From a virus, in IMG/VR virus record IMGVR_UViG_3300035670_001345, positions 1 through 22,116 of that record: 22,116 bases of DNA; one strand, 5' to 3'. Position numbers and translations under genes: made by a program. Positions within the stretch are counted from its first letter, which is position 1; each line of letters opens with the position of its first letter. The notes below the pieces were generated by a model. It had not been told where the DNA came from. It saw only the letters and a program-made list of their open reading frames with translations, and did no database searches. Shown here one piece after another: positions 113 to 17,375 of the stretch.

Positions 113-1315
113 ATGAAAGCAGAGCAGTTAGACCTAACCATCACAACCTTCTCCAATTCGCCATACCAACCGACAGGCTACGGAATGCAGATTGGACAAC
201 TGGTTGACAATCTCGCAAAGCATAGAGTCAATGTCGGGCATGTCTCGAACTACGGACTAGAGGGCAACAACTCCACACACAAAACGCCATACGGAGAAAT
301 CCCACACTATGCCAGAGGCTATGAGCCGATGTCGCAAGATGCACTTGCGGTCGCACACAAGATGCAGATGGCAAAGAAGGATTGGAACGATTACATTCTG
401 ACCCTTTGCGATGTCTGGGTGCTGAAACCTGAGATGTGGCCTACCGAGGAATTTCCAAAGATTATTAGCTGGACACCACTCGATCACATCTCAATGCCAC
501 CTGCTGTAAAGCGATGGCTAGAGAAAGACAATGTTCAACCAATCGCCATGTCACCTTTTGGCATGGAGCAACTCAATGATGTCGGCATTGAGGGAATCTA
601 CATTCCGCACTCGGTAGATACTGTCAACACCTTCAAGCCAACCGAGAAGATTGGCAAACAGAATGCAAGAGAGTTTCTAGGACTAAAGGAAGATGACTTC
701 CTAGTAGTAATGAATGCCGCTAACAAAGCAAACAAGTCCATCCACCGCAAGGCTTTCGCTGAGGCTCTGATGGGGTTTGCGATGTTCCGACAGACTCACC
801 CGAATGCTTATCTTTACATTCACACCGAACCAAAGGGAATTTATGGAGGCTTCCACCTTCCCAGATTGGCGGAGGCCTGTGGGCTTGACATGAGTTCGGT
901 CATCTTCCCTGACCCGATTGACTACCGCTTGGGCGTTGAGCCGAAGGACTTGGCTGGCTTCTATTCAACCGCCGATGTTGCTCTTCAAGTTTCTCTCGGT
1001 GGAGGATTTGAGATTCCAATCATCGAAGCTCAAGCCTGTGGGACAAGAGTCATCGGCTCAGACTGGACTGGACCAAGAGATTTAGTTGCCGAAGATGGAT
1101 TCAAAGTGTCTGGGCAACTGTTCTGGGACGAGGCACAGATTGCTTGGTGGAAGATTCCGTCAATCGCTTCAATCGCTCAACAGCTAGAGAAGGCTTATGA
1201 GGTATCAAAGTCAGAGGGTCGGTATTCAGAGACCTCACGCAAGTTCGCTCAGCAATTCGACAATGTGAAAGTTTGGAATCACTATTGGCTGCCATACCTC
1301 AAGACGCTGGTCTAA
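113..1315 (+). CDS. Glycosyltransferase, GT-B fold, GT4-like
   Basis: This 400-residue protein has the layout of a retaining GT-B glycosyltransferase. It has an N-terminal glycine-rich loop (YGMQIGQL, near residue 23), a middle segment IYIPHSVD, and a C-terminal donor-binding block GGGFEIPIIEAQACG at about 296-310 followed by VIGSDWTGPRDLV. In the family EX7E motif the second Glu is present (E305), but the position of the first Glu appears to be Gly (G297), with a Glu three residues later (E300). The start is ATG with a strong AGAAAGGAAA ribosome site at 101-110. It is the first of three overlapping sugar genes lying directly behind the presumed capsid gene, so a role in glycosylating virion proteins is likely. 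Host envelope modification is the alternative. Donor and acceptor cannot be read from the sequence. Confidence 0.85.
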   Translation: MKAEQLDLTITTFSNSPYQPTGYGMQIGQLVDNLAKHRVNVGHVSNYGLEGNNSTHKTPYGEIPHYARGYEPMSQDALAVAHKMQMAKKDWNDYILTLCDVWVLKPEMWPTEEFPKIISWTPLDHISMPPAVKRWLEKDNVQPIAMSPFGMEQLNDVGIEGIYIPHSVDTVNTFKPTEKIGKQNAREFLGLKEDDFLVVMNAANKANKSIHRKAFAEALMGFAMFRQTHPNAYLYIHTEPKGIYGGFHLPRLAEACGLDMSSVIFPDPIDYRLGVEPKDLAGFYSTADVALQVSLGGGFEIPIIEAQACGTRVIGSDWTGPRDLVAEDGFKVSGQLFWDEAQIAWWKIPSIASIAQQLEKAYEVSKSEGRYSETSRKFAQQFDNVKVWNHYWLPYLKTLV

Positions 1316-12368: not shown

Positions 12369-12549
12369 TGCAGACTTTATTAACTACGCAGGCGAGCGAG
12401 CTGTCAAGACAGTTGCTCAGACAGCGATTGCGTTTCTCGGTTCGGGTTCGGTAGGGCTGTTCACTATTGACTGGGCTGGACTTGCATCGGTGTCGCTAGG
12501 CGCAGGCTTGCTCTCAATCCTGACCTCTGTGGCATTCAAGAAGGACTAA
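12355..12549 (+). CDS. Holin, r1t-like
   Basis: The product from ATG 12355 is 64 residues and matches the r1t-type holin pattern: MKIFSADFINYAGERAVKTV, then a hydrophobic helix (AQTAIAFLGSGSVGLFTIDWAG), a short turn and a second hydrophobic helix ending LSILTSVAFKKD. These proteins form lesions in the inner membrane to release the lysin. A neighbouring ATG at 12352 is possible; AGAAAGG at 12342-12348 gives better spacing for 12355. The stop at 12547-12549 overlaps the end of the opposing whiB gene by four bases, so no terminator can separate the two. Confidence 0.75.
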   Translation: MKIFSADFINYAGERAVKTVAQTAIAFLGSGSVGLFTIDWAGLASVSLGAGLLSILTSVAFKKD

Positions 12550-12797
12550 CGCTCAGAGGGCAAAGTCGCTGCCCAAATCCCATACTTCTGACCTGACTCA
12601 ACGGCATACCTAAAGCACTCAGCCTTGACAGGGCAGGTGTCGCAGAGCTTCTTAGCGATCACAATAGACAGCCTCCGTCGAGTCTCGTCTCGAATCTCAT
12701 CGGGAAAGAACAACTCAGGGAAATCCTCACAGGGAACACCGCCAGCGGCGTGAATAGCCTTTAGCAAGCGGTAATGCTTTTGGTCGAAGTGTCCCAT
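12546..12797 (-). CDS. whiB: WhiB-family iron-sulfur transcriptional regulator
   Basis: The 83-residue product has the four cysteines of a WhiB iron-sulfur cluster: C23, C52, C55 and C61 (C-x2-C-x5-C in CDTCPVKAEC), and the conserved GIW turn (G73-I-W75) before a short C terminus ending TLPSER. The PCEDFPELFF sequence around C23 is also standard. WhiB proteins bind the primary sigma factor of actinobacteria and change promoter choice; phage copies can act on host transcription. Only actinobacteria and their phages carry them, so this gene is the strongest pointer to host. It is transcribed toward the lysis genes, ends inside the holin stop, and starts 49 bases from the divergent exonuclease gene. 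Confidence 0.92.
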   Translation of the reverse strand: MGHFDQKHYRLLKAIHAAGGVPCEDFPELFFPDEIRDETRRRLSIVIAKKLCDTCPVKAECFRYAVESGQKYGIWAATLPSER

Positions 12798-15108: not shown

Positions 15109-15315
15109 ATGGACATCGAGGAACTAGCTCGCAAGATGCGAGAACACGCAATCAGGGTAGAAAGAGAAGAAGAAAAGGTTGACCTGTCAGAGCGCAAGCG
15201 CAGACAAGAGCAACTAGAAGCAATACAGACCCTCTACTTCAATGCCGGAAGATGGGCAGGCGGAGCGAGAGATAAGACCGCTAAGGCAGCCTTTCAGAAG
15301 GTGAGCATAGGGTAA
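15109..15315 (+). CDS. Small hypothetical charged protein
   Basis: The 68-residue product (MDIEELARKMREHAIRVEREE) is very rich in Glu, Arg and Lys and is predicted helical over residues 1-45, ending with a short GRWAGGARDKTAKAAF segment. AGAGGATAAG precedes the ATG. It lies between the HNH gene and the structured leader of the replication initiator, and its last bases overlap the GGTAAAAT box. Basic and acidic residues alternate, so a coiled coil or nucleic-acid contact is possible. I do not recognise a family. Confidence 0.65.
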   Translation: MDIEELARKMREHAIRVEREEEKVDLSERKRRQEQLEAIQTLYFNAGRWAGGARDKTAKAAFQKVSIG

Positions 15316-15407
15316 AATAAAAACAGGCAGACCATGACGGCCTGCCTGACCGATGAGTGAGCATCGGCAATTCCTATCTTAGGCGATTGCCGAGGATAGG
15401 AGTTACA
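15311..15407 (+). promoter_or_regulatory. Structured leader with promoter-like box upstream of the replication initiator
   Basis: GGTAAAAT (15311-15318) resembles a -10 box. Four perfect inverted repeats follow: CAGGCAG/CTGCCTG (15324-15330 with 15342-15348); CCGATG/CATCGG (15350-15355 with 15362-15367); TCGGCAA/TTGCCGA (15364-15370 with 15387-15393); TCCTATC/GATAGGA (15372-15378 with 15395-15401). The second and third share bases 15364-15367, the third and fourth interleave, and the fourth covers the ribosome site GATAGGAG of the TTG start at 15408. This is the pattern of a leader with alternative folds that open or close translation. Confidence 0.5.
15334..15360 (+). CDS. Possible leader peptide (8 residues)
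   Basis: ATG 15334 to TGA 15358-15360 encodes MTACLTDE inside the leader of the replication initiator. A CAGG stretch lies seven bases upstream. Ribosomes on this frame would cover hairpins 1 and 2 and could shift the fold around the ribosome site of the next gene. It could easily be a chance frame; there is no coding evidence other than position. Confidence 0.2.
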   Translation: MTACLTDE

Positions 15408-16103
15408 TTGAGCATTGAAGTCATGAACGCTGTTTGGCGTGAATCAAAATCAGTCGGCAGAGCCAGACTTGTTCTATTAGCAATTGCAGATCATCAAGGC
15501 GAATTAGGCGCATGGCCCTCACTTGCCACGATCGGCAGAATGGTCAACGCATCAGAACGCTCGGTCCAGCGTGACATTGAATACCTAGTGCAGATAGGTG
15601 AGCTTGAAGTTCACTATCAGCAAGCACCAACTCGAAATCATTACAAATCAAATCTCTACTTCGTAAGACTTGCAGGGGTGACAGATACAGGTCGAGGGGC
15701 GACAAATACAGGCTCAGGGGTGACAAATGCAGAGGGAGGGGTGACACCTGTTGGCGTGCAATCCCTTATAGAACCCTTAAGAGAAACCTTAAGTAATTCT
15801 CATGTGAGTGAGCTATTTGATAACTTCTGGAAAGAGTATCCGAGAAAATCAGATAGGAGAGCAGCCCTAAAAGCGTTCAGGTCAGCACTCAATAGAGCGG
15901 GCTTTGAGGAGATACTTGCCGGGGTCATCAGGTATGCCCATGACCCTAATCTGCCAGAAGCTAGATTCATCAAGCATCCAGCAACTTGGCTAAATGCTGA
16001 TGCTTGGGAAAATGGACCGCTACCAGAACTCAAGGGCAAGAAGAAGCAAACCGACTGGGATGCAATCAAGAAGTGGGCGGAGGACTCTGATGCTCAAGAC
16101 TGA
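15408..16103 (+). CDS. Replication initiator / replisome organiser with winged-helix domain
   Basis: The 231-residue product from TTG 15408 starts MSIEVMNAVWRESKSVG and has an N-terminal helix-turn-helix domain: LVLLAIADHQG, WPSLATIGRMVNASERSVQRDIEYLVQIGELEV in parts. A linker of four heptad-like GVTxxGx repeats follows (from about residue 90), and the C-terminal domain has FWKEYPRKSDRRAALKAF and HPATWLNADAW, the usual ending of phage replisome organisers. These proteins bind the origin and recruit the helicase loader. The repeats in the protein are encoded by DNA iterons, which probably are the origin itself. I chose TTG 15408 (GATAGGAG at 15395-15402) over the longer frame from GTG 15357, because family N termini match MSIxVM and the longer start lies inside hairpin 2. 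Confidence 0.8.
   Translation: MSIEVMNAVWRESKSVGRARLVLLAIADHQGELGAWPSLATIGRMVNASERSVQRDIEYLVQIGELEVHYQQAPTRNHYKSNLYFVRLAGVTDTGRGATNTGSGVTNAEGGVTPVGVQSLIEPLRETLSNSHVSELFDNFWKEYPRKSDRRAALKAFRSALNRAGFEEILAGVIRYAHDPNLPEARFIKHPATWLNADAWENGPLPELKGKKKQTDWDAIKKWAEDSDAQD
15674..15757 (+). repeat. Four 21-bp iterons, probable origin of replication
   Basis: Direct repeats start at 15674, 15695, 15716 and 15737, with the core AGGGG(T/C)GACA and a less conserved second half (AATACAGG in two, related in one). All four are adjacent, with an exact 21-base period. They lie within the initiator gene, encoding its GVT linker. Lambda carries iterons in its O gene in the same way. Confidence 0.7.
15761..15806 (+). 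other. AT-rich stretch with 12-bp repeats beside the iterons, putative unwinding element
   Basis: Just downstream of the iterons, CCCTTATAG, CCCTTAAG and CCTTAAG recur with a 12-base step (15763-15793), followed by TAATTCTCATG. Composition is clearly richer in A and T than in the surroundings. Together with the iterons it copies the iteron plus AT-rich arrangement of the lambda-type origin. Unwinding is inferred, not shown. Confidence 0.45.
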
Positions 16104-16970: not shown

Positions 16971-17375
16971 GTGATTGAACTTCATGTTTACGGCAGGCCG
17001 ACCCCTCAAGGGTCTAAGCGTGTATTCAACGGCAGGATTGTCGAGGCTCAATCAGCTAACCTAAAAAAGTGGCGAGCGGCTATAGAAGATGCTTGTCAAC
17101 CATTCAGCAACCAGAACATCCATCTCGGTCCTATTCGGGTCGAGGTGGATTTCTATTTAGAGCGACCTAAGACTGTGAGGATAAGAGATCGGGCGTTGCC
17201 AATAGTGCCGCCCGACCTCTGACCGCCCGATAAGCTCCTCAGGGGCTGCTTAGACGGCATAGGGCAATCAGGCCTCATTTGGGGCGATGACTCCCAAGTT
17301 GTCGAGATTGCAGCTCGCAAGTTCTATAACGATGACCGAGAAACAGGCGCAATTATCAGGGTTTTGCCTCTATAA
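16971..17375 (+). pseudogene. rusA: RusA-like Holliday junction resolvase, interrupted by in-frame TGA
   Basis: The GTG-initiated frame begins like RusA (MIELHVYGRPTPQGSKR) and runs to VPPDL, then meets TGA at 17220-17222. The same frame continues without a break to TAA 17373-17375 and codes the remaining conserved part: KLLRGCLDGIG, IWGDDSQVVEIAARKFYND, ending RVLPL. In the family this place reads PDLDKLLR. Removing the nine bases TGACCGCCC would restore exactly PPDLDKLLR. A near copy of that nonamer, GTGCCGCCC, lies just upstream, suggesting a small in-frame duplication that created the stop and separates the catalytic aspartates. The N-terminal 83 residues alone should be inactive. Sequencing or assembly error, or read-through of UGA-C, are alternatives. 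Confidence 0.75.

Follow-up and report, generated by a model that had tools for sequence, protein, structure and literature searches.

Antisense control of the replication initiator is textbook plasmid biology, and three plasmid systems are closest to the locus described here. In staphylococcal RepA_N plasmids, RNAI of pSK41 is a small antisense RNA with two stem-loops (about 83 nucleotides (nt), about 100 nt upstream of the start) that is counter-transcribed to the rep leader and is proposed to induce a hairpin over the rep ribosome site (PMC5703833). With RNAI of pT181 and RNAIII of pIP501, a downstream hairpin is pre-empted by an upstream segment and can form only once the antisense RNA has bound that segment, and the induced hairpin ends transcription (PMC5703833). 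RNAII of pMV158 (48 nt) is a counter-transcribed RNA that inhibits initiator translation and is thought to block ribosome binding directly, without a pre-emptor switch (PMC4485353, PMC5703833). We analysed a virus fragment of 22 kb, IMG/VR record IMGVR_UViG_3300035670_001345 (positions 1 to 22,116, hereafter the window), in which 97 non-coding bases (15311-15407) precede a replication initiator gene. With a probability of about three in four, this region combines a counter-transcribed antisense RNA with a switchable sense leader, which would jointly limit initiator production. The closest logic is most likely that of pSK41 RNAI and of pT181 pre-emptor control.

A preliminary description of this region had listed four inverted repeats of 6-7 bp, two of them mutually exclusive and two interleaved, and all four were located. 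H1 (CAGGCAG 15324-15330 / CTGCCTG 15342-15348) is lengthened by CC/GG beyond an A.C mismatch. H2 (CCGATG 15350-15355 / CATCGG 15362-15367) has positions 15364-15367 in common with S1 (TCGGCAAT 15364-15371 / ATTGCCGA 15386-15393), which makes these two exclusive, and S1 is interleaved with a hairpin over the Shine-Dalgarno (SD) sequence. The last arm of this SD hairpin overlies AGGAG (15398-15402, plus strand), the ribosome site of the initiator 5 nt ahead of its TTG, as had been stated, but the arms (15369-15380 / 15393-15404, plus strand) are 12 bp long and not 7. Folding against dinucleotide shuffles, which had been named as a check, gave −43 kcal/mol for the window strand compared with −21.5 ± 3.0 for 200 shuffles, none of which was as low (z −7.25). 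The eight-codon frame MTACLTDE (15334..15360, plus strand) is also present, but its ATG is not conserved (ATT in relatives L020 and L211, absent from other copies) and it has no visible role; a leader peptide was rejected on these grounds.

Relatives of the initiator in IMG/VR were first gathered by protein; pattern scans came next, together with two broader initiator scans that made no use of the element. The scans gave about 40 copies, mostly some 55 nt upstream of initiators, and patterns for two subtypes had 101 and 35 matches, in additional or overlapping stretches. The relative L003, whose initiator shows 85% identity, shares this layout, and each of its stems carries compensating changes.

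The comparison pointed to the minus strand, which the preliminary description, right in seeing a regulatory RNA with exclusive folds in the sense leader, had overlooked. Nearly every copy of H1 contains A.C mismatches on the plus strand that are G.U pairs on the minus strand, and the distinct H1 stems, read on the minus strand, hold 45 G.U against 3 A.C. H1 is predicted to be more stable as minus-strand than as plus-strand RNA in all 35 distinct copies (mean −22.7 vs −14.7; −18.9 vs −14.8 in the window) and in 55 of 56 held-out copies gathered afterwards. A sense-strand role for H1 was rejected because of this polarity. In a terminator scan, H1 (15324..15348) is followed on the minus strand by the U-tract TTTTTATTTT (15314..15323), and we interpret it as the terminator hairpin of an antisense RNA. 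The corresponding promoter would have its −10 box, TAAGAT (15376..15381, minus strand), in the loop of S1. TANNNT, the −10 motif known from mycobacterial promoters, occurs on the minus strand at a fixed place in this loop: 33 of 34 distinct segments have it, as against 6.8 in shuffles, and so do 94 of 94 held-out elements gathered afterwards. Box and terminator together predict a minus-strand RNA of approximately 55 nt (15314..15369, start near 15369 ± 2) with two stem-loops, H2 and H1, which was captured in covariance model R1. The 43 aligned copies all show both stem-loops as minus-strand structures, in keeping with the layout of two stem-loops and a spacer that marks the pSK41 RNAI family. 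In this alignment 99.2% of the cells are paired, a figure biased upwards by the fitting of the alignment to the model structure; 16 of 18 pairs have changed on both sides, and the covariation score is 0.757, compared with 0.222 for shuffles and a maximum of 0.157 after sliding. Covarying relatives upstream of similar initiators, another check named at the outset, were in this way sought and found.

Plasmid-type counter-transcribed RNAs have their promoter and terminator opposite the rep leader, and by sequence a candidate for each lies on that strand here. The remaining helices lean the other way: of 39 distinct copies, 35 have an SD hairpin that is more stable as plus-strand than as minus-strand RNA, and S1 shows this bias in 24 of 33. 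So clean an opposite-strand polarity allows two overlapping RNAs to be distinguished by sequence alone.

On the plus strand, the leader can adopt two folds. In the minimum free energy fold (OFF), the SD hairpin sequesters the ribosome site, and its arms change together in relatives. In the alternative fold (ON), S1 serves as anti-sequestor, its outer helix being continued by CCTA (15373-15376) paired with TAGG (15380-15383). An H-type pseudoknot is topologically possible, as S1 and the SD hairpin interleave, but it is not needed; one arm of the SD hairpin shares bases with the inner helix of S1, and mutual exclusion of the two folds is therefore the better reading. H2, with its loop at 15356-15361, is supported by covariation and is presumed to be both the recognition hairpin of the antisense RNA and the competitor of S1 in the sense RNA. 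Its 5' arm, the shared segment and the S1 3' arm co-vary as CCGATA/TATCGGCA/TGCCGA, CCAGTA/TACTGGCA/TGCCAG (L171) and CCAACA/TGTTGGCA/TGCCAA (L139 group), and further H2 stems read CCGAAA/TTTCGG (L217) and CCGACA/TGTCGG (L199). The search patterns fixed the shared-segment sequence in part of the set, so that the weight lies with these unbiased copies (L171, the L139 group, L217, L199). Since the shared segment and both of its partners change together, both the H2 and the S1 pairing are supported.

Two classes can be distinguished by how the ribosome site is closed. In class I, which includes the window, the partner lies inside the S1 loop, while in class II the S1 3' arm itself closes the site (triplets GGCAGT/ACTGCC/GGCAGT, GGCTAG/CTAGCC/GGCTAG and GGCTAC/GTAGCT/GGCTAC). 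When the RNA was ended before the ribosome site, the computed probability of S1 was at least 0.8 in 36 of 39 copies (exceptions L078, L139 and L177); with the full leader, H2 and the SD hairpin were favoured in most of the 39. In the window, the SD sequence is unpaired with a probability of 0.81 when S1 is forced and of 0.03 when the antisense-bound segment is blocked. A leader hairpin that hides the rep ribosome site and excludes an upstream pairing is in this sense present, although not clearly in subclass IIb (see below). The translational switch of the preliminary description is borne out in its exclusive folds, the covered ribosome site and the covariation; it would, however, involve two RNAs, one from each strand, and not the leader alone.

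Conservation, covariation, strand polarity, −10 box and terminator are properties of the compared sequences, and from these we infer that both RNAs are made, in what order the leader folds, that binding occurs in trans and what the physiological role is. The minus strand would be transcribed from the −10 box at 15381-15376 into an RNA running from about 15369 to 15314, which would carry H2 as recognition hairpin and H1 as terminator hairpin. In the sense leader, S1 (15364-15371 with 15386-15393) would form as soon as its 3' arm had been transcribed, so that H2 would be displaced and the ribosome site would stay open. Being complementary to the leader up to the 15364-15371 segment, the antisense RNA would capture that segment; S1 could then not form and the SD hairpin would shut the ribosome site. 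In class II, the ribosome site would be closed by the freed S1 3' arm itself. More phage copies would thus mean stronger repression, as in plasmids.

Within this scheme the phage element resembles pSK41 in its two-stem-loop antisense RNA and in the hairpin induced over the ribosome site. The phage RNA is shorter and closer to the gene, extending to within about 40 nt of the start; neither by sequence nor through Rfam was a relationship between the two detected, and the initiator has an N-terminus of family PF13730, as in the pPR9 hybrid, whereas that of pSK41 is RepA_N (PMC5703833). The pre-emptor principle is shared with pT181 and pIP501, but the phage hairpin lacks a U-run and covers the ribosome site instead of ending transcription. 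A pT181-type transcriptional attenuator was rejected, as no U-run follows 15404 and the terminator scan found no plus-strand terminator. No Rfam family reached its gathering threshold in the window, with nothing relevant up to E 10, and the Rfam models, including those of plasmid counter-transcribed RNAs, gave no match at the element in six relatives. The earlier statement that no described element has this layout therefore holds for sequence families, while plasmid copy-control RNAs provide precedents for the logic. We found no description of antisense initiator control as a widespread module of tailed phages.

Several points weigh against a counter-transcribed RNA acting on a switchable leader. 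There is no clear minus-strand −35 box (3.09 matches vs 2.83 in shuffles). The full-length sense RNA by itself prefers the OFF fold (SD unpaired probability 0.01 in the window); with the free leader already closed at equilibrium, S1 would have to act as a kinetic trap for the antisense RNA to matter. For subclass IIb (L177, L180, L189, L193, L198, L235), S1 brings no computed gain in SD exposure because the purine run sits in the hairpin loop. Finally, some copies precede another gene first (a methylase, a GIY-YIG endonuclease or small open reading frames (ORFs)), the initiator often following.

The best-surviving alternative is the one originally proposed, a sense-only leader switch driven by a ligand, a protein or folding kinetics that controls initiator translation with no antisense RNA. 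In its favour, the alternative folds and the SD hairpin are genuine features of the sense strand, and 23 of 34 copies have a −10-like box on the plus strand, 2-9 nt ahead of H1. The candidate in the window, TAAAAT (15313..15318, plus strand), would place the start of the sense leader near 15325; it overlaps the U-tract and its evidence is weaker than that for the minus-strand box. We nevertheless regard a sense-only switch as unlikely, given that H1 is constrained on the minus and not on the plus strand, that the minus-strand TANNNT is nearly invariant, and that there is no conserved aptamer-like loop, the H2 loop being hypervariable. A riboswitch was rejected for the same lack of a conserved aptamer, with 35 different H2 loops in 43 copies and turnover of the H1 sequence.

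Improbable too is an antisense RNA acting in some other way, by RNase III cleavage of the duplex, by transcriptional interference or by directly blocking ribosome entry as in pMV158, with the sense folds secondary. Full complementarity of the RNA to the leader, the closed state of the free leader at equilibrium and the behaviour of subclass IIb fit such modes of action. Against them stands the three-way covariation (shared segment, S1 3' arm and SD sequence in class II; H2, shared segment and S1 in every class), for which an explanation that dispenses with the switch is difficult to find. An element acting at the DNA level, either a replication origin or a repressor operator made of palindromes (TCGGCA/TGCCGA boxes), would account for the position next to the initiator and for the repeated CGGC-type half-sites; it is very improbable, because the half-sites change jointly (CCGATA to CCAACA to CCAGTA), the H1 sequence turns over freely and G.U strand polarity is meaningless in duplex DNA. 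That H1, despite its intrinsic terminator form, merely ends leftward transcription from elsewhere and that the −10 box is coincidental can practically be dismissed, since the nearby genes run rightward in the window and in the Pontimonas phage phiPsal1 and the box is found in every held-out element.

The arrangement recurs in well over 100 metagenomic contigs of aquatic actinophages and in one cultured phage. It is conserved in front of diverse initiators, which have much of the C-terminal region in common and differ in N-terminal type; the module outlasts a swap of the initiator N-terminal domain. The cultured phage is phiPsal1 (MG835450), which did not enter model R1; a search with this model placed the element between an HNH gene and RepO (E ~1e-11). 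This phage has a circular map of 31,069 bp, shows no sign of integration and was present at about 2% of host stoichiometry; it was gone from a second preparation and was classed as lytic by its authors (PMC6106888).

Many other initiators among the relatives examined have no such element upstream, and it is likewise absent from the initiator regions of the actinophages Abidatro, Bolt007 and VanLee. Blastn of three element versions against cultured phages returned only phiPsal1 itself and chance matches, and one class II copy had no match beyond chance in the plasmid collection. No element was found by pattern scan in GTDB genomes or with model R1 in 398 Microbacteriaceae genomes, the latter search having no positive genome as control.

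The intervening genes vary. In L002, L010 and L135 a cytosine-methylase-like gene stands between element and initiator, so that both genes would use one leader. GIY-YIG endonuclease genes lie directly behind the element in L022 (4398-4940, minus strand) and L199 (602 onward, plus strand), as if the endonuclease gene had been inserted behind the leader or the element taken over. A 65-codon ORF comes first in the L139-L150 group, where the element is about 260 nt upstream of the initiator, and other first genes occur in L112 and in L118/L012. Weak second matches of the antisense-RNA model in L048 (1756-1838, minus strand) and L021 (1995-2078, plus strand), at 19 bits and E ~0.02, are possibly due to chance.

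The most variable part of the element is the H2 loop. In close pairs, differing sites amount to 42% in the H2 loop, 0% in the H2 stem, 3% in the H1 stem and 12% in the H1 loop. In 188 pairs whose H1 is nearly identical and whose first gene is similar, the inner H2 loop differs at 45.8% of sites compared with 24.5% at fourfold sites; these pairs are non-independent and recombination may contribute. Such loops set incompatibility in plasmid copy-control RNAs. By this analogy, a loop that differs more than synonymous sites do suggests a determinant of incompatibility or superinfection. Tentatively, the antisense RNA of these abundant, integrase-less aquatic actinophages might repress initiator synthesis of incoming phages with the same loop, the loop diversifying under selection and the phages persisting as copy-controlled, plasmid-like episomes with RNA-coded immunity types. 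Identical loops within one sample were seen in 1 of 42 pairs (1.57 expected), a difference that carries no information on whether such loops are avoided. Neither integrase (PF00589, PF00239) nor ParA (PF13614) was found in 15-19 element-bearing records, mostly fragments. Extrachromosomal mycobacteriophage prophages, with RNA-based or RepA replication, are likewise integrase-less actinophages with plasmid-style replication (PMC7157519); the RNA described here differs in that it would repress the initiator gene, and a ParA match is lacking. If the RNA works in this way, it would provide a concrete basis for copy-number restraint or exclusion of relatives by integrase-less phages, with streamlined aquatic actinobacteria as the relevant hosts.

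The initiator gene itself (15408..16103, plus strand) starts with TTG and encodes 231 amino acids with an N-terminal helix-turn-helix (Pfam HTH_36); it matches PHROG replication initiation families with an E of 1.9e-34. Minus-strand genes are rare in the window, and one of them encodes a WhiB-like transcription factor (12546-12797); phiPsal1 has a WhiB gene too. In L177, an 83-nt stretch (952-1034, minus strand) scores as transfer-messenger RNA (RF00023, 56 bits) and looks like a free-standing tRNA-like domain of that RNA in a phage; ARAGORN makes no call there.

A RusA-like resolvase gene (16971-17375, plus strand) in the window contains an in-frame UGA at 17220-17222. The stop sits in a 9-nt insert (TGACCGCCC) that separates the two Asp of the PDxD motif, and other relatives run uninterrupted through PDLDKL with no stop. 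Insert and stop are kept in L003, L206, L124 and L129 (82.6% nt identity in L129), and the frame is intact 3' of the insert (13 synonymous and 10 nonsynonymous changes in 48 codons); the insert is a candidate for programmed bypass or readthrough.
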